Part shown: positions 251 to 24,176 of the stretch, in pieces
Numbering within the stretch: position 1 is the first letter of the stretch
How the letters are laid out: every line of letters begins with the position of its first letter
Assembly (NCBI GenBank): GCA_006386115.1
Contig: VFIW01000152.1
Span: forward strand, 1 to 64,000
Length of the DNA: 64,000 bases
Source of the DNA: Globisporangium splendens
Taxonomy: Eukaryota; Oomycota; Peronosporomycetes; Pythiales; Pythiaceae
Direction: 5' to 3'
Made by a program: the position numbers and the translations under genes
The notes under the pieces: generated by a model
Told to the model about the DNA's origin: nothing
What the model saw: the letters and a program-made list of their open reading frames with translations, nothing else
Databases searched by the model: none

Positions 251-1468
251 ATGAGCGCTCTGCAGGGCCGCGTGTTCGACCGCTACCGCCAGTTCCAGAA
301 GCTGTCGCCGGAGGTGCAGACGCAGACGGCGGCGCTCTCGGAGGCGCTGGCGGCGGCCAACGACGTCTTCGGCAAGGAGTCGGTGGCGCTGCTCAAGTCG
401 GTCGTCGGCGTCAAGACGGACAAGCTGCTGGACGCCATCGCCAAGCACGCGAGCGTGGAGAAGGACGCGGCGCACGAGCTCGCGGACGCGCTCGTGCTCA
501 GCGGCTTTTTGGCCGTGGCTCACGAGAAGCACGACGAGTTCGCGACCAAGCTCGACAAGTTCGCCACGGACGCCAAGACCGTGTTCGTGCCTACGGATGC
601 GAAACTGGGCGGCCGCGGCGACAATGTGTCTGTGTGGAGCGTGCGCGACGGCGCCATCCAGGCCGGTCCGCTCAAGCGCCCTGGTAAGTCGTTCTTCGGT
701 CCCAAGGACGTGTACGCGGTCGCCAACGAGAAGAGCAAGACGCTCTTCCTGTTTGACAACGACTACGCTGAGCAAGTGAACGAGAAGGTGGACTTGAACG
801 ACGCGTCCGTGCAGTTCGACGACTCGATTGAGAACGGCGTCAAGGTGAACAACGCCGTCGCGTCGGTCATCGTCGGCGTCACGACCAAGGAGAAGCAGAA
901 CGAATGGCTCAATTCGATCATCAACGCTGGTGCCACGTACCGCGAGGCGTTCAACGTAGACACGGAAGCCGTCAAGTCGATCTACGAGCTCAAGGACTAC
1001 GACATGCAGGGCAACGAGGTGTCCATGGAGAAGTACAAGGGAAAGGTGCTGCTGGTCGTCAACGTCTCGAGTTTGTGTGGTTTGACGCCGACGAACTACC
1101 CGCAGTTGGCCGAATTGGACAAGAAGTACCGCGATCAGGGTCTCGAGATCTTGGCGTTCCCGTGCAACCAGTTTGCGAGCCAGGAGCCTGGCACCCACGA
1201 GGAGATCATGGAGTTCGTCAAGAAGTACAACTGCGAGTTCCCGTTTTTCGAGAAACACGACGTCAACGGTGCCGATGCGCGTCCCGTGTTCACGTACCTG
1301 AAGGCGAAATTGCCCGGTTCGTTCGGCAACTTCGTGAAGTGGAACTTCACCAAGTTCCTCGTGGACCGCAATGGGCAACCGTACAAGCGGTTTGCCCCCA
1401 AAGATCTGCCGTTTTCGTTTGAAGACGACATCAAGGCGCTCTTGGAGCAGAAGCCATCGTCCCTGTAA
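251..1468 (+). CDS. DEP/PH-like glutathione peroxidase fusion, three-Cys form (copy A)
   Basis: The 405-residue protein is the shortest full paralogue of the cluster. Residues about 1-115 form a DEP-like region without the long insert seen in its neighbours. Residues about 125-235 look PH-like. Residues about 245-400 are a complete GPx domain. The GPx signature residues are all present: peroxidatic Cys276 in NVSSLCGLT, Gln307 in FPCNQF, and Trp364-Asn365 in KWNFTKF. Cys305 and the loop Cys328 match the extra cysteines of plant-type, thioredoxin-dependent GPx, so this is the copy most likely to be an active peroxidase. Catalysis would reduce hydrogen peroxide or lipid peroxides. No signal peptide is seen from this start, so a cytosolic location is inferred. 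The open frame extends upstream to 65, but homology and the initiator at 201 favour 251. Confidence 0.88.
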   Translation: MSALQGRVFDRYRQFQKLSPEVQTQTAALSEALAAANDVFGKESVALLKSVVGVKTDKLLDAIAKHASVEKDAAHELADALVLSGFLAVAHEKHDEFATKLDKFATDAKTVFVPTDAKLGGRGDNVSVWSVRDGAIQAGPLKRPGKSFFGPKDVYAVANEKSKTLFLFDNDYAEQVNEKVDLNDASVQFDDSIENGVKVNNAVASVIVGVTTKEKQNEWLNSIINAGATYREAFNVDTEAVKSIYELKDYDMQGNEVSMEKYKGKVLLVVNVSSLCGLTPTNYPQLAELDKKYRDQGLEILAFPCNQFASQEPGTHEEIMEFVKKYNCEFPFFEKHDVNGADARPVFTYLKAKLPGSFGNFVKWNFTKFLVDRNGQPYKRFAPKDLPFSFEDDIKALLEQKPSSL

Positions 1469-2105
1469 GCGAGAAGGCGTCTACCTACACGGCGTTAGCT
1501 GTGGCGATTGCGTTTATCTAGTGCGATGCATAGCGTTGCATTGCGCATGCTCATGTTGTTTTCTTCCACTTTCCCTTTTTTTTTTTTTTATATATATAAG
1601 CAAAGCCACACACATTCGCATCAGTTGTCATTTCTGAGCATATTGCGCTAGCCTTATGAAACCGCACGCATACAAACTCGTTCGCATACTCACATAGCGA
1701 GCAACTGCGCCGCTGGATTGTACGCGCACATGCAGATGCGCATGCAGCATCTTTTCTCATATGGGTGTGTGATCCTCGCTGTTGCGCGCATCCGATTGGC
1801 TCGGCGCGAATCTTTCCTTTTGTGCCAAAATGTGATTCGAAGCGCATCTGCCACTGCTCAGTGATTACGCGGACCTCTATAAACAAGCATCCTCTACATT
1901 TACAAGGGAGGCTTGCAGCAAAATGGATTCTAACACTGCTTCTTCAACCATCTGAAACACAATAGCCTGCATAAAACGATTGATGCAGACAAAATTTCGG
2001 CACTGACTGGACACTTCAACCCATTTGCTCACGCACACACAAAGGCAACCCCACACTCTCCAATTTGCTGCCTTCCGCTCTTTAACACCAGCTCAAGCAC
2101 AGAAG
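1469..2105. other. Intergenic, AT-rich, with poly-T/TATA run
   Basis: No gene is supported. A 14-base T run at about 1576-1589 runs directly into an alternating AT stretch at 1590-1598. The rest is presumably the 3' end of copy A and the promoter of the next gene. Confidence 0.5.
2012..2027 (+). promoter_or_regulatory. Initiator-like CACTTCAAC element
   Basis: CACTTCAACCCATTTG lies 79 bases before the ATG at 2106. It resembles the oomycete initiator loosely. The CACTTCAAC core recurs before copy F and in several non-genic places in the window. Confidence 0.35.
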
Positions 2106-3389
2106 ATGGCGCTTCATGGCCGCGCGCACGCGCGTCTCCAGCGTTTCGCTGCTCTCTCCGCAGACCTGCAGACCGACACGCACGCGTTCCAGGTGACACT
2201 CGTGGCGGACAAGGACAGCGCGTTCGAGGTCCAGAGTGCATCGCTCTTGACGAGTGTGCGCGCCATCGACGGCAAAGACCTCACGACGCTCATCGTCAAG
2301 TGGCTGCTGGAGCGCGAGACGCCCGAGCACGCGACGCTTTCGTCGACCGACGTGCCCGTGCGTGCTCACCAGATCGCCGACGCGCTCGTGCTCTCGGGCT
2401 TTTTGACACCGTACAAGGACGATTTGGACCATTTTGACGCGGCTGATCCCGAGACCTTCGTTAAAGACGGCGAATTGCTGATCCCGATCGCGAAAGAGGT
2501 TGTTGGTGATGATGCCAAGACGACATCCGTGTGGGCTGCGCTTGACGGCGCCATCTACGCCAAGCACTTTAAGCACAAGGCGGGATTGCTGGCGCAATTC
2601 ACGGACGGTGAGGACGTGTACGTCGTGCTGAACAGCAAGACGAAGAAAGTGTACCTCTTCGAATCGGATCTTGCGCGCGAATCCATCAAAGAAGTGGACG
2701 GCGAAGCCCTGAAGGTGCAGTTTGACCATGCATTCTTTGAGTTTGGCGTACTCGTGTCGTCGCTCACGGGGGATGACAAGCACGTCGCTCCAGAGCTGTT
2801 TAATGCTAGCACGAAGCACTTGCAGGAGGAATTCGTGAATGTGCTTCTGAATGTTGGCGTGCAGTACCACGAGGCATTCAATGTCGACGTTGAACATGTC
2901 AAGTCGATTTACGAGTTGAAGGACACGGACATTTCTGGCAACGAGATCACGTTTGACAAGTACAAGGGCAAGGTGCTGTTGGTTGTGAACGTGTCGAGCA
3001 ACTGTGGCTTGACGCCAACGAACTACCCAGAGCTCACGGCTTTGGACGAAAAGTACCGTGAACAAGGTCTCGTGATCTTGGCGTTTCCGAGCAACCAGTT
3101 TGGAAGTCAGGAACCTGGCACGAACGAAGAGATTGTGGAGTTTGTCAAGCAGTACAATGCGCAGTACCAGTTCTTCGAGAAGGCTGACGTGAACGGTGCG
3201 CATGCGCGTCCAGTGTTTGCGTACCTCAAGGCGAAGTTGCCAGGCACGTTTGGTAGCTTCGTGAAATGGAACTTCACCAAGTTCTTGGTCGACCGCAACG
3301 GTGTTCCATACAAACGATTCGCACCACTGGAGAAGCCATTCTCGTTTGAAGACGAGATTCAGCGATTGTTGAGTGCTCCAGCACCATAG
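2106..3389 (+). CDS. DEP/PH-like glutathione peroxidase fusion, one-Cys form (copy B)
   Basis: The 427-residue protein begins MALHGRAHARLQRF, aligned with the starts of its paralogues. The DEP-like region is residues about 1-130, with only a short join between its two halves. The PH-like region is about 140-265 and the GPx domain about 275-425. Peroxidatic Cys300, Gln331 and Trp388 are kept. The FPCNQF cysteine has become Ser (FPSNQF), and the third, resolving-type cysteine is absent (YNAQYQFF). If it is active it must work as a one-Cys enzyme or use another reductant. Bases from about 2909 to 3250 are almost identical to copy F, far closer than the N-terminal halves are, which points to gene conversion. 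Upstream in-frame codons to 2025 are not conserved in the family. Confidence 0.87.
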   Translation: MALHGRAHARLQRFAALSADLQTDTHAFQVTLVADKDSAFEVQSASLLTSVRAIDGKDLTTLIVKWLLERETPEHATLSSTDVPVRAHQIADALVLSGFLTPYKDDLDHFDAADPETFVKDGELLIPIAKEVVGDDAKTTSVWAALDGAIYAKHFKHKAGLLAQFTDGEDVYVVLNSKTKKVYLFESDLARESIKEVDGEALKVQFDHAFFEFGVLVSSLTGDDKHVAPELFNASTKHLQEEFVNVLLNVGVQYHEAFNVDVEHVKSIYELKDTDISGNEITFDKYKGKVLLVVNVSSNCGLTPTNYPELTALDEKYREQGLVILAFPSNQFGSQEPGTNEEIVEFVKQYNAQYQFFEKADVNGAHARPVFAYLKAKLPGTFGSFVKWNFTKFLVDRNGVPYKRFAPLEKPFSFEDEIQRLLSAPAP

Positions 3390-3575
3390 GTATGCAAAAT
3401 GTAATGCGAGTATCTCTGCCGGGAAGTGACTTAATTCGAACTTTTCAATGCAAGTACGCATTTTTGATCATGATTGACAAGATAAACAATGCATATGCAA
3501 TCCATTATGTATGATCACACAGGAAGACAATCGCACTGCGAGATGCTTTGATTGGAGCACTAACAGCTCCCAATA

Positions 3576-4853
3576 TTACGGAGCTCCTGCGTTCACAGGT
3601 TTGTATGCCTCTCTCGTGTGCGTTGGGGAGACTTTTCCACGACGAGTGTTCGCCGCGCTGTGTGCTTCGAGCTCACTCGAGTCCACCGGCGGCGGAGGTC
3701 CTGTCTTCGTCGCGCTGTTCATCGCGGACGCCGCGTGTCTAGCGAGCGGCGCTTCGAAAGGATCTGCGTTCGGGTCCACGTCGTTTTGCGGTGTGTTCTT
3801 GTTCTGATCCATTTGAGACCCAAGCGTGTGCTGCGCGATCGGAGTCTCCGAAGCTCCAGACTCGTCGTCGGTATTTCTTGTTCCAGTCGATGAGTCCTCT
3901 GGTCGTTGTGCTGTCGCTGTATTTGGGTCGGCGTTCGCTCGTCTGAAGCTCTGCGGGTCGCGGTATCTGCCACCGATGCTGACCCACGCTTTCACAAACT
4001 CTTCTTGCGCGAACTTTGAGCCCATGTCAAGGAGCTCTAGCTTGACGGTGTCCTCGTCACCCGACATCATCGCGATACGCACGCCGAAGTCGAAGGTGTC
4101 GTGAGTAAACGTCACACCCAAGTTTGTCGCGTCCAATTCAGCGATCACCTCGTGTGCCAGATCCGATTCAAACAGGCACGCGCGTTGCGTCTTCTCATTG
4201 AGGACAACATACACGTCTTTACTCGAAGACGAGATCTTTGAGAGCAGCCCCGCTTTGCGCTTGAGGAACCTGGCGTAGATCGCGCCGTCGATCACACTCC
4301 ATACAGATGTTGTGTGAAGCTCCTCGATTTCCCTGGCGATGGGGACAAGCAAGTCGTTGTCTTGGACATACCGATCTGGCGGCGGTGCGTTCAAGTGCTT
4401 GACATCGTCTTCGTAAGGAGTCAAAAATCCGGAATGGACGAGTGCTTCGGCGATTTGATGTGCGCGTTCCCGGAGCTCGTGGGGTACTGGCACAAGATCC
4501 TCGCCGAGTGGAACCCCTGGTAGCGCTGCACGCGGTTCCGGCGGCATCCCGACTCCTTTGAGCGATCGCGTGTGTTTGTTGAACGCCTTCGAAGCGGGAA
4601 CCTTGGGTCGGAAGTCGGAAGCGACCTCTTCAAGTTGCCGCTCTTCGAGCCATTTGATGATGGCCGCCATCAAGGCACTGCCCTTGACGCTGTAGACCGA
4701 CTTGACGAGCTTGGTCTTGTGCGTCTCAAACACGTGCGCTTTGTTCTGCACGAGATACTCTTGGAACCCCTTGGTATCGTCTTGAAGATCCGACGGGAAC
4801 GACGCAAAATTCGTCAGCCGCGTGAACACACGACCTTCCAAAGTGAAGCCCAT
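3576..4853 (-). CDS. DEP/PH-like paralogue lacking the GPx domain (copy C)
   Basis: This 425-residue paralogue is inverted relative to the rest of the array. It starts MGFTLEGRVFTRLTNF at 4853, matching family starts. It has the first DEP half, then an insert of about 60 residues, the second DEP half (RAHQIAEALVHSGFLTPYEDD), and a full PH-like region ending in the conserved helix EEFVKAWVSIGGRYRD. Exactly where the others begin GPx it changes to a tail of roughly 130 residues rich in Asn, Asp, Thr, Pro and Ala. No GPx residues remain, so it cannot be a peroxidase. It may act as a scaffold or membrane-binding partner of the others; that is inference. The frame is open upstream to 5162, but that part has no family match. 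Confidence 0.82.
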   Translation of the reverse strand: MGFTLEGRVFTRLTNFASFPSDLQDDTKGFQEYLVQNKAHVFETHKTKLVKSVYSVKGSALMAAIIKWLEERQLEEVASDFRPKVPASKAFNKHTRSLKGVGMPPEPRAALPGVPLGEDLVPVPHELRERAHQIAEALVHSGFLTPYEDDVKHLNAPPPDRYVQDNDLLVPIAREIEELHTTSVWSVIDGAIYARFLKRKAGLLSKISSSSKDVYVVLNEKTQRACLFESDLAHEVIAELDATNLGVTFTHDTFDFGVRIAMMSGDEDTVKLELLDMGSKFAQEEFVKAWVSIGGRYRDPQSFRRANADPNTATAQRPEDSSTGTRNTDDESGASETPIAQHTLGSQMDQNKNTPQNDVDPNADPFEAPLARHAASAMNSATKTGPPPPVDSSELEAHSAANTRRGKVSPTHTREAYKPVNAGAP

Positions 4854-5871: not shown

Positions 5872-7575
5872 ATGACGACATTGCCAGTCGAAGGCCGCGT
5901 GTTCTCCCGCATGATGCGGTTTGCATCGCTCCCCCAGGATCTCCAGCAAGACACCAAGGCCGTGCAGGCGCTGCTCGTGCAGCACAAGGCCAATGTGTTT
6001 GGTACGCACCACACGATGCTTGTGCAGTCTGTGTACAGCGTCAAGGGCAAGGCGTTGATCGAGTCCATTGTGAAATGGCTCGAGGACCGTCACACTGAAG
6101 CTCAGGTAGCTCAATCGAGCCAAAACCCCAATGCCACGGAGGCGACGCCGACAACCAGCATGGGTCCTCAAGCGACCACACAGCACGGACCTGAGGCTAC
6201 GGGTCACCACCGCACTCCGATCGGCCATCAGGACACCATGTCGCCTGGCGGTCTAAGTCGTGGTGTCCCGGGACCCTACCAACCGAATTTCCTTGCTCGC
6301 GCACGCCAGATCGCCGACGCGTTGGTGCTCTCAGGTTTCTTGACGCCTCATGACGACGACATCAAGCATACGAACGCACCACCGCCAGACCACTACGTCG
6401 ACGACAATGACCTGCTTGTGCCAGTCGCCAAGGAGATCACTCGCCTCCGGACCACGTCGGTGTGGAGCGTGCTCGACGGCGTGATCTACGCCAAGTTCCT
6501 CAAGCTTAAGGCTGGACTTCTCGGGTCAATATCACCCGGTAGGGAAGTGTACGTTGTGCTCAATGAGAAGACGCAGCGTGCGTACTTGTTCGAGTCCGAC
6601 TTGGCGCGCGAGTCGATCGCCGAGATTGGCGCTAAGTCTGTCAGCGTCGAATTCGACGACAACTCGTTCGAATTTGGTGTGCGCGTGGCGTCAACCTCGG
6701 GAGATGACGTACGCTTGAAGCCTGAGGAGTTCAATTGTGGCACGAAGCACCTCCAAGAAGAGTTCATCAACGCGTGGCTCAACATCGGCGCCTTGTACCG
6801 CGAAGTGTACCATGGCGAAATGGAGCATGCGCACTCGATTTACCAATTCATGGACCTCGATATCCGCGGAAACCCGGTCTCATTTGACAAATACCGCGGC
6901 AAGGTGCTACTCGTCGTGAATGTTGCTAGCGGGTGCAAGTTGGCGTCCCACAACTTCCCAGCTCTGACCGTTTTGCACGAAAAGTATCGCGACCAAGGGT
7001 TCGAAGTCTTGGCGTTCCCGTGCAACCAGTTTGGAAGTGAAGAACCCCGCAACCATGAGGAGATCATCCAATACGTCTCGCAATTCAACGCGAACTACCA
7101 GCTCTTTGAGAAGGCGGACGTGAACGGGTCACACGCCAGACCCGTGTTCACGTTCCTCAAGGCGAAGCTGCCGGGGACGTTTGGCAGCTTTGTCAAGTGG
7201 AATTTCACCAAGTTCCTCATCGATCGCAATGGCGTGCCGTACAAGCGCTACTCGCCAAAGGACTCGCCACTTGATCTCGAACGCGACATCCAGGAGCTGT
7301 TGAATGCGCGTGGCAATTCGCAGGCTCAGCAACAAGGTTTCGCCCAGGTAGACCAGACGGGTGCACATACACCAACGAACCTGAACCGCGGCGAAGATCA
7401 ACAACGATTCACTCAACAGTCTGGCTTCGATAAGAGCCAACACACCGGCACGCATGCGCCAGTCTACTCGAACCAGTTCGAAGGACAGCAAGGTTTGCCA
7501 CAGCAAGCGGGCTATGGCATGGGGCAGCAGGCGGGGTACGCGAACCAGACTGGAGGTCAGCAAGAGCTGAACTAA
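5872..7575 (+). CDS. DEP/PH-like glutathione peroxidase fusion with repeat tail (copy D)
   Basis: The 567-residue protein has DEP half 1 (about 1-75), a Pro/Thr/Gln/His-rich insert (about 76-140), DEP half 2 (about 141-180), a PH-like region (about 195-310) and GPx (about 320-480). Peroxidatic Cys355 is kept, but its surroundings are changed: VASGCKLAS in place of the usual VSSNCGLTP. Gln386, Trp443 and the FPCNQF cysteine Cys384 are present; the third loop cysteine is not. From about residue 480 a Gln/Gly/Thr/His-rich tail begins, with motifs such as QFEGQQG and THAP. The frame ends at TAA 7573-7575, yet the same repeat pattern continues in frame beyond it to 7785, so the stop looks secondary. 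The start at 5872 is fixed by the exact initiator upstream. Confidence 0.88.
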   Translation: MTTLPVEGRVFSRMMRFASLPQDLQQDTKAVQALLVQHKANVFGTHHTMLVQSVYSVKGKALIESIVKWLEDRHTEAQVAQSSQNPNATEATPTTSMGPQATTQHGPEATGHHRTPIGHQDTMSPGGLSRGVPGPYQPNFLARARQIADALVLSGFLTPHDDDIKHTNAPPPDHYVDDNDLLVPVAKEITRLRTTSVWSVLDGVIYAKFLKLKAGLLGSISPGREVYVVLNEKTQRAYLFESDLARESIAEIGAKSVSVEFDDNSFEFGVRVASTSGDDVRLKPEEFNCGTKHLQEEFINAWLNIGALYREVYHGEMEHAHSIYQFMDLDIRGNPVSFDKYRGKVLLVVNVASGCKLASHNFPALTVLHEKYRDQGFEVLAFPCNQFGSEEPRNHEEIIQYVSQFNANYQLFEKADVNGSHARPVFTFLKAKLPGTFGSFVKWNFTKFLIDRNGVPYKRYSPKDSPLDLERDIQELLNARGNSQAQQQGFAQVDQTGAHTPTNLNRGEDQQRFTQQSGFDKSQHTGTHAPVYSNQFEGQQGLPQQAGYGMGQQAGYANQTGGQQELN

Positions 7576-8160: not shown

Positions 8161-8221
8161 AAACTCCTCCGAGCATTACACAACAAAACACTTCTACAAA
8201 ATACTGCAGGGTTTCTCAGGA

Positions 8222-9030: not shown

Positions 9031-11442
9031 ATGGAACTACCGCTCCAAGGCCGAGTGTTCACTCGCCTGGCGAACTTCAAAACGTTCCCTGAAGAGGTTC
9101 AAGAAGACACCAAGGCCGTGCAAGCGCTCATCATCCGAAACAAAGACACCGTGTTCCAGAACAACAAAGCGAAGTTCGTCAAGTCCGTGTACAGCGTCAA
9201 GGGTAAGGCGCTGATCGAGTCTATCGTGAAATGGCTCGAAGTGCGTCAGGCAGAGAAAGCCGGTCGATCCGGCCAAACCCCGGGCGCCGCCACGACAATG
9301 CCCACGACTGACGCAACCTCCCAGCATTCACCAGTGGTAGCTCCACTTTCCGGGGAGCAAGGTGCTGGGCACTACCACACTCCAATGACCAGCATGGGTG
9401 CCCACGCGACTGAGAGTCGTTCGCCAGAGGTGACTCCTACCAAGGGATATGGAGCTGGGCAGCAAAACTCTCCGTCGACCAACATGGGCGGTCCAATGGC
9501 TCAGGATCCTTCCTCCCAGGCAGCTTCAACCAACAAGGAACACCATACTCCGTACGGTCTTTCGGCCACAGTGCCTGCTCGTGGCATCTGTGGATCCTTC
9601 CAGCTGGCATACCACTCCCGAGCTGGCCAAATCGCCGATGCCTTGGTCCTCTCAGGCTTCTTGACGCCGTTTGACGACGACATTAAGCACACGCACGTAA
9701 CCCCTCCCAAGCACTTTGTGCACGATAATGCGCTCTTGATCCCAGTCGCCAAGGAAATCTCTCGTCTCCCAATCACTTCCGTGTGGAGTGTGCTCGACGG
9801 CGTGATCTACGCCAGGTACGTCAAGCGCAAATCGGGACTCCTTGGAAAAGGCAAAGACGTGTACGTCGTGCTCAACGAGAAGACGCACCGCGGGTACCTG
9901 TTTGAAAACGACTTGGCGCGCGAATCGATCTCCGAGTTGGACGCAGCAGCTATCGACGTGCAGTTCGACCACAACCCATTCGACTTTGGCGTGCGTGTGG
10001 GGCCAACATCGGGTGACATGACGCACATGAAGCCTGAGCAATTCGACTGCGACACGAAGCACCTACAAGAAGAATTTGTGAACGCGTGGCTCAACATCGG
10101 CGCGCAGTACCGTGAAGCGTACAACGTTGAGATGGAACGCGCGCGCTCCATTTACCAATTCATGGACGTCAACATCTACGGAAACCCAATCTCATTCGAC
10201 AAGTATCGCGGCAAGGTGTTGCTGCTCGTGAACGTTGCTAGCAATAGCAAATTGGCACCTCAGAATTACTCGGAGCTGTCCATGTTGTATCAAAAGTACT
10301 GCGACCAAGGGTTCGAAGTCTTGGCGTTCCCGTGCAACCAGTTTGGAAGTGAAGAACCTGGAACAAACGAACAAATCCTCGAGTATGTCAAGCAGTTCGA
10401 CGCGAACTGCCAGTTCTTCGAGAAAGCGGACGTGAACGGCGCGCATGCCCGACCAGTGTTCACTTACCTCAAAGCAAAGCTGCCAGGCAAATTCGGCAAC
10501 TACATCAAGTGGAACTTCACCAAGTTCCTCGTTGATCGCAATGGCGTGCCATACAAGCGATATGCGCCAACCGACAACCCGCTCTCGTTTGAACACGACA
10601 TCCAGGAGCTGCTGAATGCGCCTGTGGCGGCAGATCAAGGATTGGGTGGACGGTCGGGGTTAGTCCAGGAGTCAGGTTTGACTGCAGGTGCAGCAGCGCA
10701 ACCAATTCCAGAGAAAATGGCCGATCCGTCGGGCTTCGCGGAGGGGGAACATGCTGGTACGCGTGCGCCGAACGTCAACCAAGACCAAGGGCAATCGGGA
10801 ATGACTCGATCACCAGGTTACGGCACAACGAGACAAACCGGCACACCACAAATGAACCAACCAATGAGTCACGGCATGGGACAGCAACCAGGCACTCATG
10901 CGGGACTGCAACCGAACCAGCTTGAAAGCCAGCAAGGTATGCAGCAGCCAATTGACCACAACATGGGCAGCCAAGGAATGACACAACCTTCCGGCTACAG
11001 CGCAAGTGAGCACGCTAGCACACACACGCCACTGCAATCAAATCAGTTCGAAGGGCAACAAGGCATGCCCCAACCAACTGGGTATGGCACGGGCGAGCAC
11101 ATGGACACACACGCTCCACAAGCTGGCAACTACCAAGGAAACCAAGGAATGGCGCAACCATCGGGGTACTCGAAGGGGGAACAGACAGACACAAATGCGC
11201 CATTGCAATCGAACCAGTTTGAAGGTCAACACGGGATGGCGCCACGATCCGGCAACTACCAGCAGGGAGAGCAAGGCATGGCGCATCCATCAGGATACTC
11301 CAAGAGTGAAAACATGGCTACAGGTGCGACGCCGCAGACGAACCAGTTTGAACCGCATCAGGACCCTAACATGGCGAACACGTACACGCACAAGCCAGCC
11401 GGGTATACCGGAACGAACGCGGGCGAGCCACAAGTGCCATAA
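9031..11442 (+). CDS. DEP/PH/GPx-like fusion lacking the peroxidatic Cys, long repeat tail (copy E)
   Basis: The 803-residue protein is the longest paralogue. It has DEP half 1 (about 1-72), a Thr/Ser/Gln/Gly-rich insert (about 73-190), DEP half 2, a PH-like region (about 240-360), a GPx fold (about 370-530) and a low-complexity tail of about 270 residues. At the peroxidatic position the motif reads VASNSKLAP, so Cys is replaced by Ser406. Gln437, Trp494, the FPCNQF cysteine (Cys435) and a third cysteine (Cys460) remain. It is therefore probably a pseudoperoxidase, or uses one of the remaining cysteines differently. The tail holds imperfect repeats of about 30-40 residues with words such as LQSNQFEGQQGM, QPSGYS and THAP. 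It starts MELPLQGRVFTRLANF, matching the family. Confidence 0.86.
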   Translation: MELPLQGRVFTRLANFKTFPEEVQEDTKAVQALIIRNKDTVFQNNKAKFVKSVYSVKGKALIESIVKWLEVRQAEKAGRSGQTPGAATTMPTTDATSQHSPVVAPLSGEQGAGHYHTPMTSMGAHATESRSPEVTPTKGYGAGQQNSPSTNMGGPMAQDPSSQAASTNKEHHTPYGLSATVPARGICGSFQLAYHSRAGQIADALVLSGFLTPFDDDIKHTHVTPPKHFVHDNALLIPVAKEISRLPITSVWSVLDGVIYARYVKRKSGLLGKGKDVYVVLNEKTHRGYLFENDLARESISELDAAAIDVQFDHNPFDFGVRVGPTSGDMTHMKPEQFDCDTKHLQEEFVNAWLNIGAQYREAYNVEMERARSIYQFMDVNIYGNPISFDKYRGKVLLLVNVASNSKLAPQNYSELSMLYQKYCDQGFEVLAFPCNQFGSEEPGTNEQILEYVKQFDANCQFFEKADVNGAHARPVFTYLKAKLPGKFGNYIKWNFTKFLVDRNGVPYKRYAPTDNPLSFEHDIQELLNAPVAADQGLGGRSGLVQESGLTAGAAAQPIPEKMADPSGFAEGEHAGTRAPNVNQDQGQSGMTRSPGYGTTRQTGTPQMNQPMSHGMGQQPGTHAGLQPNQLESQQGMQQPIDHNMGSQGMTQPSGYSASEHASTHTPLQSNQFEGQQGMPQPTGYGTGEHMDTHAPQAGNYQGNQGMAQPSGYSKGEQTDTNAPLQSNQFEGQHGMAPRSGNYQQGEQGMAHPSGYSKSENMATGATPQTNQFEPHQDPNMANTYTHKPAGYTGTNAGEPQVP
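10636..11430 (+). repeat. Tandem degenerate repeat coding for Gln/Gly/Met-rich tail
   Basis: The coding sequence contains imperfect units encoding NQFEGQQGM, QPSGYS, EH-DTHAP and related words. The same units occur in copy D before and after its stop. Unit number differs between paralogues, as expected for slippage or unequal exchange. Confidence 0.7.
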
Positions 11443-11862: not shown

Positions 11863-12774
11863 GAAGATGGGGGTAGGGCTGGCATTTGCTATTTTTCCCC
11901 CTCAATTGCGTCGCATCCCGATATTAAGTTGAGGAGTCAGCAATGTAAGTACAGTCGACCCTCTGCCAGCCGAACATCGAGGATCTGCATATTCTTTCTG
12001 AAGTGATAGTCATTTTCTATCGGCTTCAAAAGGAAATGGCTCATGGACGGCTGCTTCCAAAGCGTTTTAAAATCTAATGGCTGTGGTATACTCCATATCT
12101 CGTGAATTCATATATGCATTCAACATTCTTCTGTTGGAGGGATGTCTGCAGTTCTGCAGGTTTGTCTGGATCACCTCTTCAACCCACTACTGTAGGATAA
12201 TCAACAGCAGCGCAGACCCAAAGAGATGCTTGCTTTAGCCGTAAACCACATGGTGCCCATGCCTGCAGGTGACGGTGGCGTGGTGGATGCTGCCCGTCCT
12301 GGCGCAATTGGCTTCTTGTAGAAACGCAGAGCGTCCATGAGCTCAAGTGGATGTCCCTACTGTATGCACATAGAAACCCAAAGACACAAAAACATGAGAA
12401 GACAGATGAGCAGACGCGACTTTTGTGAAGGTTTTGTCTCATATCGATGCAAAGAGCGTCAGCCATCATTTCTCAGATCAAACACCTTCATAAAGGAATG
12501 CAGTCGCATAGTTTATACGAGAACTATCCAATGCGGACCACTTCGCGTGTCGTTTGCACTTTGACAAGAGATCTTGTTCTGTACGATACAATACCCTTTC
12601 CAAAGTTATCGTTATACAGCAGTCGCGGTGCGGCACGAGCGCATTTAAAAAAGGGATCTGCTTGATGGGTACGACGACAATGGCCCCATGAGATCGTCAC
12701 GCTCGCCTGCGTTGTATATACACTTTCCCCTTTCTCTCCTCCTTCTCGTTTCTCTTCTCCCCCCTTTCCCTCTC

Positions 12775-12790
12775 GCTCATTCTCGAATTT
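12775..12790 (+). promoter_or_regulatory. Oomycete core promoter, near-exact match
   Basis: GCTCATTCTCGAATTT matches 15 of 16 consensus positions, sits after a long C/T tract, and lies 63 bases before the ATG at 12838. Confidence 0.82.
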
Positions 12791-12837
12791 GCACCCAAGG
12801 CCGCACTTCAACCAAGCTATCTCAAGAAATCTCCACA

Positions 12838-14481
12838 ATGGCGCAAAAGAACCTCGAAGGTCGCGTGTACGCGCGACTGCAGCGCTTTGAAGGGCTCCCC
12901 GAGGACCTGAAGGAGGACACGAAGAAGTTCCAGACGTACCTGACGGAGAACAAGGCTTCAGTGTTCCAGATCCACCACGCCGCGATCGTCAAGCCTGTGT
13001 ACAGCGTCAAGGGCAAGGCGCTGATCGAGTCGGTTGCGCAATGGCTCCACGCGCGTGAAGCTCCAGCGGTTGAAGCTACTGAGGCTGCGCCTGCAGCTGA
13101 GTCGACTGAAGTGACTGAAGCGACTGAAGCTGCGGCTCCTGTCGCTGAAGCTGCCGTCGAAGAAGCACCGGCAGCAGCTACTCAAGAAGAAGGTGCTGCC
13201 ACCACTGAAGAAGCTGCTGCTGCGACCGAGACGCCAGCGCCAGCGTCAGCTGCTGCGACTCCTGTGGTAGCGCCGATTTCCGCGGAGACTCGCGAACGTG
13301 CTCGCCAGATCGCCGAATCACTTGTGCTCTCGGGTTTCTTGACTCCGCACAAGGACGATGAGAAGCACGTCAATGCGCCGCCTCCGGACCACTACGTGCG
13401 CGACAACGACTTGCTCGTGCCAATCGCAAAGGAGGTCACGGAAGTGAAGACGACGTCGGTGTGGAGCGTGCTCGATGGCGCGATCTACGCCAAGCTGTTC
13501 AAGCGCAAGGCGGGCATCCTGGCGCCGTTCACGAACGGCAAGGACGTGTACGTCGTGTTCAACGACAAGACCAAGAAGGCGTACCTCTTCGAGTCGGATC
13601 TGGCGAAGGCTGCGATCGCGGAGTTTGATGGTGAGGCTGTGAAGGTCGAGTTTGACCATGCGTTCTTTGAATTTGGCGTGCGCGTATCGTTGGCCTCGGG
13701 CGACGACAAGGAGAAACCAGAGCTGTTCAATGCCAGCACGAAGCACTTGCAGGAGGAATTCGTGAATGTGTGGCTCAACATTGGTGCGCAGTACCGCGAA
13801 ACGTTCCATGGCGAGATCGAGAACGTCAAGTCGATCTACGAGTTGAAGGACACGGACATTTCTGGCAACGAGATCACGTTTGACAAGTACAAGGGCAAGG
13901 TGCTGTTGGTTGTGAACGTGTCGAGCAACTGTGGCTTGACGCCAACGAGCTACCCAGAGCTCACGGCTTTGGACGAAAAGTACCGTGAACAAGGTCTCGT
14001 GATCTTGGCGTTTCCGAGCAACCAGTTTGGAAGTCAGGAACCTGGCACGAACGAAGAGATTGTGGAGTTTGTCAAGCAGTACAATGCGCAGTACCAGTTC
14101 TTCGAGAAGGCTGACGTGAACGGTGCGCATGCGCGTCCAGTGTTTGCGTACCTCAAGGCGAAGTTGCCAGGTACGTTTGGCAATTACATCAAGTGGAACT
14201 TCACCAAGTTCTTGGTCGACCGCAACGGCCAACCGTACAAGCGCTTTGCCCCGACGGACAAGCCGCTCTCTTTTGAGGACCAGATCCAAGAGCTCCTGAG
14301 CACGCAAGCGGACCCGGAGGTGCTGGAAGAGGAATCGAAGGAGGAGGAAACGCCAGCGGTGACGACCACGCCGGAAGATCCTGCTGCTGCACCAGAGACG
14401 AGCGAGCCAGAAGCCCCCGCTGCCACAAAAACAGAAGCAGAAACGGAAACTCCTGCTGCCGCCCCTGCTGCTGCGCCGTAA
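12838..14481 (+). CDS. DEP/PH-like glutathione peroxidase fusion, one-Cys form with acidic linkers (copy F)
   Basis: The 547-residue protein has DEP half 1 (about 1-76), an Ala/Glu/Thr-rich insert of about 65 residues, DEP half 2 (about 142-185), a PH-like region (about 200-315), GPx (about 330-485) and an acidic Ala/Pro/Glu/Thr tail of about 60 residues. Cys365, Gln396 and Trp453 are kept. FPCNQF has become FPSNQF and the loop cysteine is absent, as in copy B. The GPx-coding part is almost base-for-base the same as copy B, although the N-terminal halves differ. The acidic insert is unlike the Gln/Gly inserts of copies D and E, so linkers evolve independently of domains. The start is set by the initiator at 12775. 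Confidence 0.88.
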   Translation: MAQKNLEGRVYARLQRFEGLPEDLKEDTKKFQTYLTENKASVFQIHHAAIVKPVYSVKGKALIESVAQWLHAREAPAVEATEAAPAAESTEVTEATEAAAPVAEAAVEEAPAAATQEEGAATTEEAAAATETPAPASAAATPVVAPISAETRERARQIAESLVLSGFLTPHKDDEKHVNAPPPDHYVRDNDLLVPIAKEVTEVKTTSVWSVLDGAIYAKLFKRKAGILAPFTNGKDVYVVFNDKTKKAYLFESDLAKAAIAEFDGEAVKVEFDHAFFEFGVRVSLASGDDKEKPELFNASTKHLQEEFVNVWLNIGAQYRETFHGEIENVKSIYELKDTDISGNEITFDKYKGKVLLVVNVSSNCGLTPTSYPELTALDEKYREQGLVILAFPSNQFGSQEPGTNEEIVEFVKQYNAQYQFFEKADVNGAHARPVFAYLKAKLPGTFGNYIKWNFTKFLVDRNGQPYKRFAPTDKPLSFEDQIQELLSTQADPEVLEEESKEEETPAVTTTPEDPAAAPETSEPEAPAATKTEAETETPAAAPAAAP

Positions 14482-15021: not shown

Positions 15022-15846
15022 TCAATCGCGTCTTGCTCGCCATTGAAAAAGTCGGCGTTCTTTCAACTGGAATTGGCACATTAAAGCATGCAAGGATGTG
15101 TACTCTAAACGCGCCTGTTGCTCCGTGATATCCTTCAAATCTCCGTAGTACTGGATATTGGACAAACGAGTCATGACAGCAAGGTAGATCGCGCACATGA
15201 ATGGAATGATGGCCTCAATGAACTCAACCACGACCGCTTCTTCAATCTCGTGAAGTTGGTGCAGCACCCCCTTAATCGTCTGCATTTGCTGGAAATCGGC
15301 GAGTAGTTCCTGCTCTACTGCTGGATAGTCGATCTCAGAATGGTCACAGGGAAAGCATTGGCGATAGCTCCGAAGCCGAACCTTGTCTTTCGTTCCGAGT
15401 GAAATAACGACGACCGCGTTGAGAGCGAAGAAAAACGGTACACTTGCGGTTGTGATCACAAATGGAACTGGGAACCTCCAGTACTTTGCGAGCAGCAGAA
15501 TCGATCCCCCGAGCGCGAGAGTGGAGCCGATTACGAGCGCGCTTTTCACCGACTTTGTCAGGGTTACCTCTGGAATTAATAACCCGGCTTGCACAAGCAT
15601 TAGCATGAGGGTAGCAATCGCGTTCACGGAAGCGCGCATCCGGTATACTCCATTTGCACGCCACCCTTCACTCGGATCCTGTAGCGGAACCACTTCAATA
15701 ATGAAGAGGAACGCCAACGCTGGCAGCCCGTTGAAGACGAGTGCAGAGAATACACGCCATCCAGGAGCTGCCTGGCAGTACTCATGGAATGCGAACGGCC
15801 GGTCCACCGGGTACTCGCGCGCTCTGTTGCTGGTAGCTTCTGCCAT
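15022..15846 (-). CDS. Truncated multipass membrane protein of a repeated oomycete family
   Basis: The 274-residue frame has the family's N-terminal features: AFHEYCQ, a first hydrophobic segment, the motif VVPLQDPSEGWRANG, then three more hydrophobic segments and AKYWRFPVPF. It resumes late in the family pattern with EFIEAIIPFMCAIYLAVMTRLSNIQYYGDLKD, so about 150 middle residues seen in the 21-kb copy are missing. After that the ending (about 40 residues) does not match the family. The deletion is in frame. The product could be a short membrane protein, but decay is as likely. Function is unknown; the start is the ATG at 15844-15846. Confidence 0.55.
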   Translation of the reverse strand: MAEATSNRAREYPVDRPFAFHEYCQAAPGWRVFSALVFNGLPALAFLFIIEVVPLQDPSEGWRANGVYRMRASVNAIATLMLMLVQAGLLIPEVTLTKSVKSALVIGSTLALGGSILLLAKYWRFPVPFVITTASVPFFFALNAVVVISLGTKDKVRLRSYRQCFPCDHSEIDYPAVEQELLADFQQMQTIKGVLHQLHEIEEAVVVEFIEAIIPFMCAIYLAVMTRLSNIQYYGDLKDITEQQARLEYTSLHALMCQFQLKERRLFQWRARRD

Positions 15847-16964
15847 GAATTCTGTCCGTATGGTTCCTCCTCCATTTTGTCACGGTAAGCTGGAGACTGT
15901 CGCCCAAAGAGAAAAGTGCGGCGTTGCTTCATCGGATCGTTTACTCTTGACATATTTTCAATGCATTTGGGCCGTCAATAACAGTTTGGACTCCTAATCG
16001 CACTGAATCTTGGCGCTTCGTCGTCAATTATGTGGCTGGTGCTCACTTGCTGTTCATCGAAACCGCAGGCACTAGCGCGCTCCGACAGTGTTGAATTCGT
16101 CATTAGCGCCTGAGTTGTGTCGTCCTTTACAATCTACATGGTACTTCATGTTCAAAGAACACTGTAACACAAAAGCTGTGAGACTGTTGTTGCAAGCAAT
16201 AGCTTCCATCGGCCATGGAACGCATTGAAGCTGAAGACGTTGCTTGGCAGCATTAATGAGAGCGTAGATGCTGCGTCGCGTCGTTCCGCAAGCAATTTTA
16301 CTGCAATCCTATGCTTATGGAGATACAAGCGTCGGATTGCATGTATGGCCTGCCGCACAGTTGTGAACGCCATCCGACAACCGCCTTCAGTTTTTGTGTG
16401 GACGCCCAAGCACTGTCTTTGGAACCAAAGTTTCAAGGAAAGTTAACTGCACTCGCTCTGTCGCCGAATCGAATCTCACAACTCGCCTCACCTAACCCGC
16501 GATTTTTGTTTGAGCACATCGGTTTCTATTGGCTATTAATAAAAGTACTGCAATCCTCTGTTTGTGCAGATGCTGCCACAAGCACCCGATTGCATACACT
16601 GTTCGAGCCACTGCGCCGAATCGCTCCTGTTCGATCAACTTGTGCATCTGAATGTCTATTACCAAGCACGCTGCTTCGCGCTGTTTCGCCACCTGGTAGT
16701 TGTAATCCTGTGTTTATAATGATGCTGGCACAAGCATCGGATTACATGTACGACCTGCCGCATTGTGTAGCTATGAGTACTGTCCGGTATATGTATCGGC
16801 AGTTTCCGCGTGGACATTTGGAAGGTTGGTCCTCAAAGCCAGAGTTTCAAGGAACTCGTCCGCAATTGATGGAGTTGCTTTTGCTCATTTCTCAAAATCC
16901 TGCAAAGGTCCTCAAACAATCAACTACTTACTCTTCTGCGAAAACTCTCTCGCGCTCTAGTACT
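15847..16964. other. Intergenic with a threefold diverged repeat
   Basis: About 1.1 kb upstream of the NmrA-like gene. It has three related segments near 16300, 16548 and 16701 (listed separately). An open frame runs through part of it in phase with the downstream gene, but it has no initiator and no family match, and I do not call it coding. Confidence 0.5.
16300..16854. repeat. Three diverged direct repeats of about 58 bases
   Basis: The segments start at about 16300, 16548 and 16701. Each opens with TG(C/T)AATCCT and has CAAGC followed by (G/A)GATT(G/A)CAT about 35-45 bases on. Copies 1 and 3 stay similar for about 150 bases and both end in AGTTTCAAGGAA. They lie just before the NmrA-like gene. 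Confidence 0.6.
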
Positions 16965-18093
16965 ATGGCTGTCTACACGTCCTTCGCGATGATCGGCGCT
17001 GGCTCGCTTGGCTCCTTCATCACTGCAGAACTTCTCAAGAAGAATGTGTCGGTCAAGGTGCTCACCCGCGACGACTCAAAGGTAAGAGTCGTCCCCTGTC
17101 GAAGCATTTATGCATCTCCGTCGCACGCAACGAGCTGATTCCATCCGTCTTTGACCTGCGTGTTGCAGCCAGAGTGGGACACTGTCAAGAAAAGCGGCGC
17201 CACGATCGTGAAGGTTGATTACTCGGACAAGAAGTCGATGCAAGACGCTCTCACCGGCGTCCAAGTCGTGTACGTACTGTCGCGGTTTTACCGCAAACAG
17301 CACTCTTTCGTTGACTGACTGCTTCTCCGTCGACTGCGCCTCTGACATTAATAACACTCAGCGTCAGCACCGTCTCGTTCTATGGTCTCGGAGCCCAAGT
17401 CGACATGGCGAAGGCCGCGAAGGCTGCGGGTGTCCAGCTATTTGTGCCGGCCGAGTTTGGCGTTGAAGTTTCCGATGGCACGGGCGGCGTGAAGATGGTG
17501 GTAAAAGACGCGCTGAAGGAATTGCAGCTCCCGTTCGTGTTGTTCTACCCTGGGTTCTTCGCCGACCTCTTCCACGTGTAAGTTGATTCAAAGTGTATAT
17601 CACACAGCTACATCTGTAGTCCATCGCGATGTGTATCACGCGTGCTGACTTTGATCTTTGTGTGTTGCTGCATCTCAATTGTCGGCATAGGTTTTTCGGA
17701 TACAAGTATGCGGAAGGTCGCATGACCATCGTGGGCAAGGGTGAGACCGCGTTCAGTGCGACATCTCGCCACGACATCGGCCGCTTCGTCGCGCACGTGC
17801 TCACGACGGTCGCGCCCGCTGAGCTCGCGTGGAGCACCTTTCGCTTCGAAGCCGATCGCTTGACGCTTCACGAAGTCGCTGCTCGCGCTGAGCACAAACT
17901 CGGCACGACCATCGAGATCACGTACCTCGACTTTGACGAGATCAAGAAGAACTACGATACTGATTTCTTCGCGTTCCTGACCACGGTCATCGAAGACGGT
18001 CGCGCTGCGGCCGGGTCGCTCGAGGAAGCTCAGGCCACAGTGGACAAGTACTTTCCCGACTGGAACCCTGCCAAGTTTGACGAGTTCATCTAG
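16965..18093 (+). CDS. NmrA-like NAD(P)-binding oxidoreductase, four exons
   Basis: Exons are 16965-17081, 17169-17269, 17362-17577 and 17691-18093, giving 278 residues. Introns are 87, 92 and 113 nt with GTAAGA, GTACGT and GTAAGT donors and CAG/TAG acceptors; all junctions keep frame. The N-terminus has the dinucleotide-binding glycine motif GAGSLGS after a hydrophobic strand. Later parts (VVVSTVSFYGLGAQ, FVPAEFGVE, FYPGFFAD) fit the NmrA/isoflavone-reductase-like atypical short-chain dehydrogenase group. The family binds NAD(P) and either reduces small molecules or senses redox state; the substrate cannot be told. There is no signal peptide, so it is probably cytosolic. Confidence 0.83.
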
Positions 18094-18482
18094 ACCGTCC
18101 AGCTACCATTGCTGTCGCGGTGAAGATGACATGGCAATGCGTGTTAGTGGTGAGAATCCGTTGATAGTATGGGCTCAGAGAAAGGAAACTCGAGTGTGCT
18201 CGCAGAGATTGAACGCTCCTATTAGCTAGGACCACCGCCCTGCAACTAGAGCGCTTTACTTTTTCTTCTCAATCAAATCAGATCAAACCATTTTGCCTGG
18301 TTGCATTTTGTCCAGATGCTCTCTCTTTTCATCAAAGCACACATTCTGGTTACACAGAATGACGGTATACGTAGCTCCTGTAATCACAAGATTATGCTCG
18401 TCAGGGAGAGGTCACAGTAGGACAAGAAGAGCAGGTCAAGCCACAAAGAGCACCACTTGCTCACACGCACGCCGCCTTGGGG
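18094..18482. other. Intergenic, promoter of the M96-like gene
   Basis: 389 bases with no gene seen. It has initiator-like pyrimidine/AT stretches such as AAACCATTTTGCC near 18285. Confidence 0.45.
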
Positions 18483-20099: not shown

Positions 20100-20374
20100 T
20101 GATTACAGTGTGGATGGGTGTTGCGTCCATGCCAGAACATAGATGGAAAGGTTTGGAACATGGGATTACCGGGGCACCAAGCAATTACTGGAGAATGTTT
20201 TAATTCAAGTCTTGGAAATGTGATTTCCAGCTAACCTGTATCTAAATTTCCATTCACACTGCAGTTTGTTGACAGCACCAACGTCGCAGACTTTGCTTGT
20301 AGGCGAAAGTGAACTCAATCGAGCAGCAAATGCAAGAGGTTGGCAAATTGCTCTGTGAGCGATAAAACGCAAGA

Positions 20375-22131
20375 TCACCCGTAAATCATGTCGGTCGTCC
20401 ACAACTGTTGGTACGTTTTGGAATGTGCTTGGGTCCTGAACGCAAAAGCAAGCATTTTGTTTCTCGTGCGATCATGCGGTGTTATCTGCTGTACATGGTC
20501 AATATTGGGCACAGGCACACTGGAGAGGGAAATATATCCACTACTTGCTGTATGCGCGAATTTGAACGAGTGGTCGGCTCCAGAAATGGTGAGAGGCAAG
20601 TTACTCGTTCCCAAAGTCAGAAAATTGCAGACTGCTAGTCCACTTTTTAGTGAATTTAACGTACCACTGTGAATGAGCAGGAACTGGACAATCCACCCGA
20701 TAAGGTAGCATTGGTAGACTTCCCACTCATTCTCCAGTGCAAATGCGCAGCTCATTGAACACCGACACACCATCATTTGATACCGTGCACCAAACTCGGC
20801 ACCTCGAGCGCAACGTAGATCACAGTGCTCACAAGGATGGTGTTGGTCTGTTGCTCTGATATTTTCCAGGACTTCATAGTAACTGGACGTTCGGCAAGTG
20901 CACCATGATAGCAAGATAGATTATGTACATGAATGAAATGATGACCTCAATGTGCTCGACCACGACCACTTCTTCGATTGCGTGAAGTTGGCGCATTGCC
21001 TCTTTGGTGATTCGGGACGGCTGTGAGTTTTCTGGTTGAACCGCGTTGGATGGGTGGATTTTATGCGTGGGTCCCCCGACTGTATTTGCAAAGATTGTAA
21101 ACGCCGCAGCTCACTCTGCGAACTAGCGGAAAGAGCAAAGCGGGGATGGATCACCCCAAAACGCAAGAAGCCGGAATCCAAACGCTGAGACTTCTTCAGC
21201 TGTGTAAACACATACGGGAGCAACTGGCGAGTTTGCAAGTCATGACGGAGATACTCGGTTTGCTTGGAGAGCTTGCGAATCGCCATCAAATTCTGTGCGA
21301 GGTCGACAGCAACAATGGCGACGCCGACGGTGAGGGTCCCAGCCGATTGCATGCACTTGCTCATGTACATGGCATCGAAGATGTCGACGCACGCAAAGAC
21401 CGACGGGAGTAAGTCATCGTCCCACATCTTGAGTTTCGCGAGCAGGTGCTTGAATGAGAGCTTCACAATCGGTAAGAGCACGACCAGCGCCAGCTGCGGA
21501 ATTCCATCGAGCGACAGGAAGATCGCGTTGTACGCTGGATACACAACTATCATTGACCCCTGGATTGAGTTCGTGAGCATAAAGTGTTGGAAGCGCCGAA
21601 GCTGCGCTTTGTTTTTTCTGCCCATGGTCAACACTGCAATCAAGCTAAAAGCGACGAAAAAGGGTCCACTTCCAAGGGTAAGCGCAAACGGAACCGGGAA
21701 CATCCAGTACTTGGCGAGCAATACAATCGTGCTTCCGAAGGCTGCGGCTGCGCTGATTATCAACGCGATCTTGCTCATCGGCGTCATCACCACTTCTGGA
21801 ATAAATGTTGGAGTCTGGTTGAGGAACAGCATGGACGCGCTGATAGCCGTCCCTGAGATTCGTGCCCAGTACGTTCCATTCGCACTCCACCCTTCCCTTG
21901 GGTCTTGTAGAGGAACTACTTCAATAATGACCAGCAACATCAACGCTGGCAGCGCGTAGAAACCAATGACGAAGAACACGCGCAGCGGAGATACACACTG
22001 ACAATACTCGTGGAATGCGAAGACCCGCTCGACTGAATACCGGTGCTCTCCGTATTCCTGTCGCTATGGTCGTGACCAGATCTTGAGAACGTGGCAATGT
22101 CGTCGTTGCTTGCTGTTTCGCGCAGTGACAA
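20375..22131 (-). pseudogene. Decayed full-length copy of the multipass membrane family
   Basis: Read on the minus strand, an N-terminus starting at 22131 (MSLRETASND) loses frame near 22030. The family frame then runs from about 22040 to 21000: AFHEYCQ, VVPLQDPREGWSANG, AKYWMFPVPF, YMSKCMQSAGTL and QLKKSQRLDS. It breaks again near 21000, and a further frame carries VVVVEHIEVIISFMY. After another one-base shift comes YYEVLEN, and finally LENEWEVYQCYLIGW. At least four frame breaks are seen. It is the best view of the complete family layout: about seven or more hydrophobic segments and a long middle domain missing from the 15-kb and 40-kb copies. Confidence 0.75.
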
Positions 22132-22634
22132 GATGTTTGATCGCTCGGTGCCTCCTCGGATTATCGCACGTGATCTTGTACCGGTTTGAAGTCAAAAGTC
22201 CCAGCGTTCAGTCGACGCGGGCGTGATCGTCCTAAATCACGGTCGGTGGGTAGGCTCTGTCAGCGATATTGTTAGCTCAATTTTTTGTTGCAGCTAACAA
22301 GCGCAACGACAGCCCCAAACTCTGGACACACTTTGCACCGTCGATCTTGAGAATCATCGTCTTGATGCATGGCTGGGACGACGCCTTGCGATCTTGACGG
22401 CATCCTTTTGACCATCTGTAGGCAGCAAAAAAGCTCTGACAAACTGGGTCCGAGTGTATTCTTGAGCCACGAGAACGTTGGTTTTGAGCGGCAGTTAGTT
22501 CGCAACTTTCGCGCCAAGTGCGTCGTTCCCTTTCCCATACCATTCCACCAGATCCGATCGTTGAAGCATCTTGGGAGCTTTGGAGAGAGATCAAGTCGCA
22601 GCAGTCTCCATTTTGCATTGTCGAAGTCGCAAGG
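22132..22634. other. Intergenic before the outlying GPx paralogue
   Basis: About 500 bases without a supported gene. CAGTCTCCATTTTGC at about 22602 is the likely initiator of the gene at 22635. An in-frame open stretch runs upstream of that gene from 22518 but has no ATG. Confidence 0.45.
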
Positions 22635-24176
22635 ATGCCGCCAGCCGGGACGAGTGCTGCAGACACGATGGCGGAATTGGCTTCACGCGCGCTCCACGTA
22701 GAGCACCAAGAGCGGGAGCACATGGACGAGCTGCAGATGCTGGGGCTTGATCGATCACTGGCAGCTGCACCGCCAGTCGTGGACGGTCGGGTCTTCCAGC
22801 GACTGTATCGCTACCACTTGCTGCCTCCACAGTTGCAATTGCTGTCAGACGCCGTTGCCGTGCTCTTGGTGACACCCGAAGTCCGCAAGCAAGTGTTTGC
22901 GACGGGAAAATGTCACCATCCGAGCGCGCTGGGACCGTGTGTTCGAGGAAACAAGCTGATTGCCGCCGTCAAAGACTACGTTCAAACCCACGAGGAAAAC
23001 GTGAGCGCCTTGCAGGATAGCGCCAAGCAGGTCGTCGAAGCGCTTGTGCTCTCTGGATTCATCTCTCCTGTGCACGAACCGGAGAACGAAGACAGCATCG
23101 TGACGTACGTGAACGACAAGGATTATTACGAACTCGTAGCTCCTGGTGCGCAGCAAATCGTAGCCGCTGGAGCTCGCGGAACTGGAGCTGGCGGAGAACG
23201 CCATGACGAAAGCTCTGCAAGGCGACAGAATGCGAAAATGTCGGTCTGGGACATCACAGATGGCGCCACGCGTGCAGGTGACGTGTTCCGCAGACCAAGT
23301 ACACTGTCCCCCACACTACGCTTTCTGCAATCGCTCTCGCTCTGTGGCGCGCGTCCAAGGGAGAAGCGCTTCTACGCCGTGATCAACAAGACCAAGTACC
23401 ATTCCTTGTATCTCTTCGCAACGGACACGGCGCGTGAAGAGCTCTCCCACTTGGAGCTGCAGGATGCAATGGCGCAATACGAAGCTGGGTCTGCGAATGC
23501 TCCTTTGTACCACGGACTGAAGATCTGGGACGACACACATAGCGAGGTCTTGGATTTCGTCTCGAAGACGCGACAGGAAGAATGGCTGCTGGCGTTCTTG
23601 GACGCTGGTGCCAAATACAAGGAGGCGAACCGCGACCACGACAAGTGGGCGTCACCAGATGCGTCGTTCTACTCGCTCACGGATGCCGACGCGAGTGGCA
23701 AACGATTCTTGATGGAAGACCTGGTCGGCAGCGTCGTGCTCGTCGTCAATGTCGCGAGCAAGGACCCGCAGGCATCGCTCCAGTACCCGGAGCTCGTGAC
23801 GATCGCAGACAAGTACCACGATGACGGACTCGCTGTGCTCGCGTTCCCCAGCGACCAATTCGGCGGCGACAGCCAGGAGTTCGACACGGACGGCGAGATC
23901 TTGAGCTACTTGGTGCAGGCGTACAATGTCAACTTCCCGATCATGACGAAGCGCGACGTTAACGGACTGGACGCACGCGACGTGTTCCTCTACTTGAATG
24001 CGCACTTGCCGGGGCGGTTTGGACCGTTCACGGAGTGGAACTTTACGAAGTTCCTCATCGACCGCCATGGCAAATCGTTCAAGCGCTACGAGGCCAGCGT
24101 GTTGCCGCAATCGCTGGAAGCCGACATTCGCCAGCTTCTCGAGTCGCCTGTGCCCGAATCCGCGGAGCAGCAGTAG
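22635..24176 (+). CDS. Divergent DEP/PH/GPx-like pseudoperoxidase (copy G)
   Basis: The 513-residue protein is separated from the main array by 8 kb. A family-type start (VVDGRVFQRLYRYHLLP) is preceded by about 50 extra residues. A DEP-like region, a PH-like region with a longer loop, and a GPx fold follow. The peroxidatic motif has become VASKDPQASL, so Cys is replaced by Asp377. FPCNQF is FPSDQF, and no third cysteine remains. Gln408 and Trp468 of the active site and EWNFTKFLIDRHG are kept. With no cysteine in any of the three functional positions it cannot catalyse GPx chemistry, yet a long clean frame and conserved fold motifs argue for a preserved non-catalytic role. The first ATG is at 22635; the longer frame upstream uses GTG. 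Confidence 0.82.
   Translation: MPPAGTSAADTMAELASRALHVEHQEREHMDELQMLGLDRSLAAAPPVVDGRVFQRLYRYHLLPPQLQLLSDAVAVLLVTPEVRKQVFATGKCHHPSALGPCVRGNKLIAAVKDYVQTHEENVSALQDSAKQVVEALVLSGFISPVHEPENEDSIVTYVNDKDYYELVAPGAQQIVAAGARGTGAGGERHDESSARRQNAKMSVWDITDGATRAGDVFRRPSTLSPTLRFLQSLSLCGARPREKRFYAVINKTKYHSLYLFATDTAREELSHLELQDAMAQYEAGSANAPLYHGLKIWDDTHSEVLDFVSKTRQEEWLLAFLDAGAKYKEANRDHDKWASPDASFYSLTDADASGKRFLMEDLVGSVVLVVNVASKDPQASLQYPELVTIADKYHDDGLAVLAFPSDQFGGDSQEFDTDGEILSYLVQAYNVNFPIMTKRDVNGLDARDVFLYLNAHLPGRFGPFTEWNFTKFLIDRHGKSFKRYEASVLPQSLEADIRQLLESPVPESAEQQ

Follow-up and report, generated by a model that had tools for sequence, protein, structure and literature searches.

An array of glutathione peroxidase genes with a PH and a probable DEP domain in the oomycete Globisporangium splendens

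In the 64,000-nucleotide stretch of Globisporangium splendens DNA analysed here (contig VFIW01000152.1 of assembly GCA_006386115.1, positions 1 to 64,000; hereafter the window), seven paralogous genes, A to G, were confirmed within positions 251-24176 by open reading frame (ORF) translations and sequence comparison. Six of them encode a glutathione peroxidase (GPx) domain that follows a predicted PH domain and a probable DEP domain. From our point of view, the array represents an oomycete family of one-Cys, GPX4-type thiol peroxidases with a built-in DEP-like and PH targeting module, a reading to which we assign a probability of about 0.5. An earlier note, made from the DNA letters alone, had placed seven paralogues here, and the coordinates of all of them are borne out. 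G. splendens itself is described as an oomycete plant pathogen with a published draft genome (PMC7163027).

The peroxidase domain and its catalytic residues

The Pfam family GSHPx (PF00255; cut-off 27 bits) is found above cut-off in six of the seven copies, with 87-129 bits, and copy C gives no Pfam match at E<=10. The catalytic set Cys-Gln-Trp-Asn (CQWN) is intact in A, B, D and F as well as in Z, an eighth copy located outside the window, and the corresponding positions read SQWN in E and DQWN in G, while C has no GPx domain to score. As such, the six fused peroxidases proposed in the earlier note exist as domains and four of them carry the complete set, but E and G are devoid of the peroxidatic Cys. 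Among 94 family members picked by a simple filter, the peroxidatic site is Cys in 91, and Ser (E), Asp (G) and a gap (C) occur once each. The filter missed some members, including P0073, which has Ala at the peroxidatic site and Ser in place of the catalytic Trp, and whose nearest window copies are B and F, not E or G.

With thioredoxin-dependent GPxs such as poplar GPX5 and yeast Hyr1/Gpx3, the array proteins share the GPx fold and the peroxidatic Cys, but the resolving Cys in the second helix is absent from all 92 scored family members (94 filtered, two unscorable). It is present in 22 of 34 scored proteins among the 40 other matches, a group that still includes some family members. Judged by its residues, the family is hence a one-Cys GPx that lacks the resolving Cys of the thioredoxin-dependent enzymes, and should therefore be reduced by glutathione or by a partner thiol. 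GPX4 and GPX7/8 are one-Cys GPxs as well. Compared to GPX4-type (phospholipid hydroperoxide) GPxs, the array is distinguished by a Cys codon, by the DEP-PH part in front and by the lack of the catalytic Cys in E and G. The use of selenocysteine was considered and rejected, since the ORFs have a codon for Cys, Ser or Asp there and no selenocysteine is needed. The solved GPxs among the structure matches are single-domain enzymes.

Two trivial explanations for the Ser of copy E were likewise rejected, namely a sequencing error, as Ser is also encoded on a second contig (C191), and a pseudogene, as the 803 codons are open on both contigs with a ratio of nonsynonymous to synonymous substitution rates (dN/dS) of 0.21. 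Close to the active site, copy B reads PSNQF on the window contig and PCNQF on C191. A GPx domain was also noticed in P0094 and P0107, which bear the name of an aldehyde dehydrogenase or an ammonium transporter and are possibly merged or misnamed gene models.

The PH domain and the probable DEP domain

A PH-like domain in front of the GPx domain, as claimed before, is supported by predicted structures and structure searches, both of which place it in the PH fold, and by Pfam PH (PF00169) matches in relatives, which exceed the cut-off in P0071 and P0108 and reach E<=1 in 12 of 51 aligned members, P0108 included. A profile of the PH part alone (A7) has its best PDB match at 0.048 (P-Rex1), which is suggestive only. 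The motif EEF(V/I)N.WLNIGA.YRE, described earlier as conserved, has an exact match in three of the seven copies (D, E and F), and only variants of it occur in A, B, C and G.

The N-terminal domain is likely, though not proven, to be a DEP domain, an assignment based on domain order and fold and not on direct sequence proof. The order of secondary-structure elements in the predicted model is close to that of the DEP winged helix, and Pfam DEP (PF00610; cut-off 32.7 bits) matches 5 of 25 linker-shortened relatives weakly, at best with 3.2e-4. The split of the domain that had been proposed is real in C, D, E and F, where a long insertion of low confidence or low complexity separates the two halves; it is short in B, but there is nearly none in A and G.

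Additional support for this assignment comes from a second lineage. A search with the N-terminal part of P0108 retrieves P0126, P0127 and P0128. The metagenomic proteins P0108, P0127 and P0128 have the same DEP-PH-GPx order, and P0127 matches DEP (9.5e-6; 25.9 bits, which is below the cut-off), PH (2.7e-5) and GSHPx. With this lineage, the N-terminal profile of the oomycete proteins gives a co-linear alignment of 194 columns (E 9.9e-6, probability 82, score 43.8), compared to a score of 16.1 for the reversed profile and of at most 20.0 for 50 column shuffles. The signal is held by the PH half (38.9), by which the two groups are related at the profile level. The layout is thus common to the oomycete family and the second lineage and, together with the fold, marks DEP as the most probable identity of the first domain. 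A branch with a support of 100/98 in the GPx tree separates the 42 oomycete rows from the second-lineage GPx domains. A single origin of the two groups of fusions could not be established in this way, and one or two fusion origins are both possible, since the tree is midpoint-rooted.

Several results weigh against a module of this kind. At E<=10, neither Pfam DEP nor Pfam PH matches any of the seven window copies, and among the linker-shortened members SCAN scores in more proteins (11 of 25, best 0.0016) than DEP does. Against the second lineage, the DEP half alone scores 14.6 in one comparison and 17.0 in another, in which the best of 50 shuffles reaches 18.6. The profile A4, which includes two second-lineage rows, matches DEPTOR in the PDB with 1.6e-8, but this match is gone in A5 (A4 minus these two rows and one oomycete row) and was not used as proof for the window proteins. 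With the oomycete-only profiles A5 and A6, no DEP chain of the PDB is matched significantly; A5 matches a Coronin coiled coil at 0.031, and A6 a Timeless fragment at 0.003 ahead of the first DEP chain, that of P-Rex1, at 0.94. Membership of the window domain with DEPTOR and P-Rex1, neither of which has a peroxidase, is hence not established by an oomycete-only profile, and the DEP identity given in the earlier note is likely, judged by the model, the weak Pfam matches and the second lineage. In structure searches (50 rows each), all matches listed are GPx or PH and DEP is not among them, which says little as the lists were filled by these two folds. With regard to a plain phosphoinositide docking, the basic motif of the phosphatidylinositol trisphosphate (PIP3) type was found in the first strands of none of 49 filtered PH segments, a check that covers this mode of lipid binding only. 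The PH domains of the seven window copies are furthermore acidic (isoelectric point 4.9-6.5). The target is therefore as likely to be a protein partner or an atypical lipid as a phosphoinositide.

The array, its second contig and its relatives

Copies A to F are contiguous up to 14.5 kb, and G lies about 8 kb farther along, with other ORFs in between. Copy A (251-1468, + strand) encodes 405 amino acids (aa) with a probable, winged-helix-like DEP domain at about 7-115, PH at about 125-228 and GPx at about 240-401, in which C276, Q307, W364 and N365 are present. Copy B (2106-3389, +; 427 aa) has the same three domains and the full catalytic set. Copy C (3576-4853, -; 425 aa) consists of a probable split DEP domain, a PH domain and a different tail in the place of GPx. 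The probable DEP domain is also split in D (5872-7575, +; 567 aa), where PH and GPx with the peroxidatic Cys are followed by a Q/G-rich tail, in E (9031-11442, +; 803 aa), which continues behind PH and its Ser-bearing GPx with a long repetitive tail, and in F (12838-14481, +; 547 aa), which has PH and GPx with the full catalytic set. Copy G (about 22668-24176, +; about 502 aa, with an uncertain start, as the ATG at 22635 is also possible) is the most divergent, has Asp at the peroxidatic site and scores 87 bits for GSHPx. At the DNA level, A, B, D, E and F share direct repeats, and C shares inverted repeats with D, E and F. G is tied to the array by protein similarity only (37% identity to A), and its branch in the GPx tree, like that of P0073, is very long. 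Within the tail of E, positions 10832-11352 (+) are repetitive and Q/G-rich with a unit spacing of 126-171 bases, and a related tail is found in D. Upstream of the likely start of F, an in-frame extension (12688-12837, +) with a hydrophobic, signal-peptide-like stretch is present that is perhaps untranslated.

The end of C191 overlaps the first 15.1 kb of the window, which belongs to contig C62, with 95.5-96.5% identity and preserves the order of copies A to F. It further carries copy Z, inverted and upstream of A, at about 203.4-205.1 kb (-). The two contigs are likely haplotypes that meet at their ends, although the assembly does not prove this. A plain other haplotype could not be substantiated, as the GPx part of D has a synonymous divergence of 0.35 and as no difference at all is present in F or in the GPx part of E, and the overlap is hence rather a mosaic. 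The tail of D also differs in length, giving 567 aa on the window contig and 637 aa on C191.

For aa 273-362, the DNA of A and Z is identical on both contigs, but their identity over aa 1-212 is only 0.34-0.59. Similarly, B and F are 0.99-1.00 identical over aa 274-363 on the window contig (2925-3194 in B, about 13852-14121 in F), and 0.91-0.99 where B of C191 is concerned. This uniformity is the pattern expected if gene conversion had acted on the GPx half alone. Between the contigs, dN/dS is 0.07 for A, 0.19 for B, 0.49 for C, which is the highest value, and 0.24 for D; these figures cover A to F, as C191 does not extend to G, which has no second copy to compare.

A protein search returned 750 proteins at E<=0.001, of which the best 120 are listed, many without an organism name. 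Among the matches listed, the fusions are found under the names Phytophthora, Plasmopara, Peronospora, Bremia, Pythium, Lagenidium and Albugo, plant and insect matches cover the GPx part only, and neither Saprolegnia nor Aphanomyces is among the names. By sequence, the architecture is thus widespread in oomycetes, so that "unusual", as the array had been called, fits the locus but not the architecture. Locus tags with nearby numbers, such as V7S43_012602/012604 and Poli38472_010330/010332, suggest adjacent copies in other species too. A third version of the architecture is represented by PH-GPx proteins of 285-288 aa from Phytophthora and downy mildews (P0078, P0086, P0088, P0091, P0092, P0098), which start at the PH domain and have no DEP domain. 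GPx-less relatives exist in other records (P0121, P0123, P0124, P0125), but cannot be paired with C as clear one-to-one orthologues. In the G. splendens assembly, further GPx matches lie on contigs C120, C167, C8 and C184. A whole-assembly search with C gave matches confined to the array and its C191 counterpart; as G was not among them, distant relatives may have escaped it.

The component domains are known, and their combination is already present in databases under GPx names, namely 'glutathione peroxidase' or 'putative glutathione peroxidase, PH-like domain superfamily' (P0058, Plasmopara halstedii). These entries belong to the same family, but are database names only and none of them mentions DEP. 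The earlier note could not confirm a functional description of the fusion, and no functional account of it was found in the literature searched, which omits most subscription journals; passages of PMC2705460, PMC5322657 and PMC12223298 do not describe it.

With respect to the neighbouring ORFs, those at 15022-15846 (-) and 20921-21979 (-), between F and G, have a common stretch like EVVPLQDP.EGW.ANG and no Pfam match at E<=0.01. Two ORFs at 16950-18093 (+) show ApbA and NmrA matches below cut-off and are perhaps one NAD-binding gene split by introns, and a mitochondrial carrier protein gene with three Mito_carr stretches adjoins G (24532-25698, -).

Possible roles of the array proteins

If the array indeed encodes peroxidases with a targeting module, the PH domain, joined to GPx through a short, conserved linker, would together with the DEP domain place the probably cytosolic enzyme on a membrane or on a membrane-bound partner. 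There, the peroxidatic Cys could reduce lipid or other hydroperoxides and, in the absence of the resolving Cys that thioredoxin-dependent GPxs have, would be recycled by glutathione or pass its oxidation on to a partner thiol. Since the catalytic halves are homogenised and the DEP-PH halves differ, different copies may bring the same chemistry to different sites, and E, G and C might act as non-catalytic adaptors or competitors.

An alternative that we consider tentative is a peroxide sensor and relay, in which DEP-PH binds a signalling partner instead of a lipid, the one-Cys GPx hands its oxidation to this partner and the dead copies hold the partner unoxidised. Such relays have precedents in yeast Gpx3, which acts on Yap1, and in GPX7/8, which act on PDI. 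The missing resolving Cys, the acidic PH domain without a PIP3-type motif, and the presence of dead or GPx-less copies, with GPx-less relatives also in other records, would all fit. No partner protein is known, however, and GPX4 is likewise without a resolving Cys yet driven by glutathione, so that the absence of this Cys is no proof. One could further speculate, on a still less probable note, about a dedicated oomycete peroxide-signalling family, in which DEP-PH picks the membrane or signalling partner, the GPX4-type domain oxidises this partner or protects its lipids, the Cys-less and GPx-less paralogues are matched inhibitors, and gene conversion holds the catalytic half constant, leaving the addressing half to diverge.

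It is unlikely that the N-terminal domain is another winged helix and that the N-terminal part serves mainly for protein assembly. The Coronin and Timeless matches ahead of any DEP chain and the weak SCAN scores are in line with this, but Pfam DEP matches are found in the second lineage, whose domains have the same order, and the order of elements in the model is close to DEP. Very improbable, finally, are ordinary housekeeping peroxidases whose fused domains do little and whose array is a plain tandem duplication. Duplication with apparent gene conversion, the high dN/dS of C and the short forms without DEP would be compatible with this, but DEP-PH is retained in proteins under the names Phytophthora, Peronospora, Pythium, Lagenidium and Albugo, and it also occurs repeatedly without GPx.

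Overall, a conserved GPx family with its own targeting module would show a spatial placement of peroxide chemistry in oomycetes. As the same locus holds copies that are active, inactive or free of the enzyme domain, addressing and catalysis should be separable in tests.
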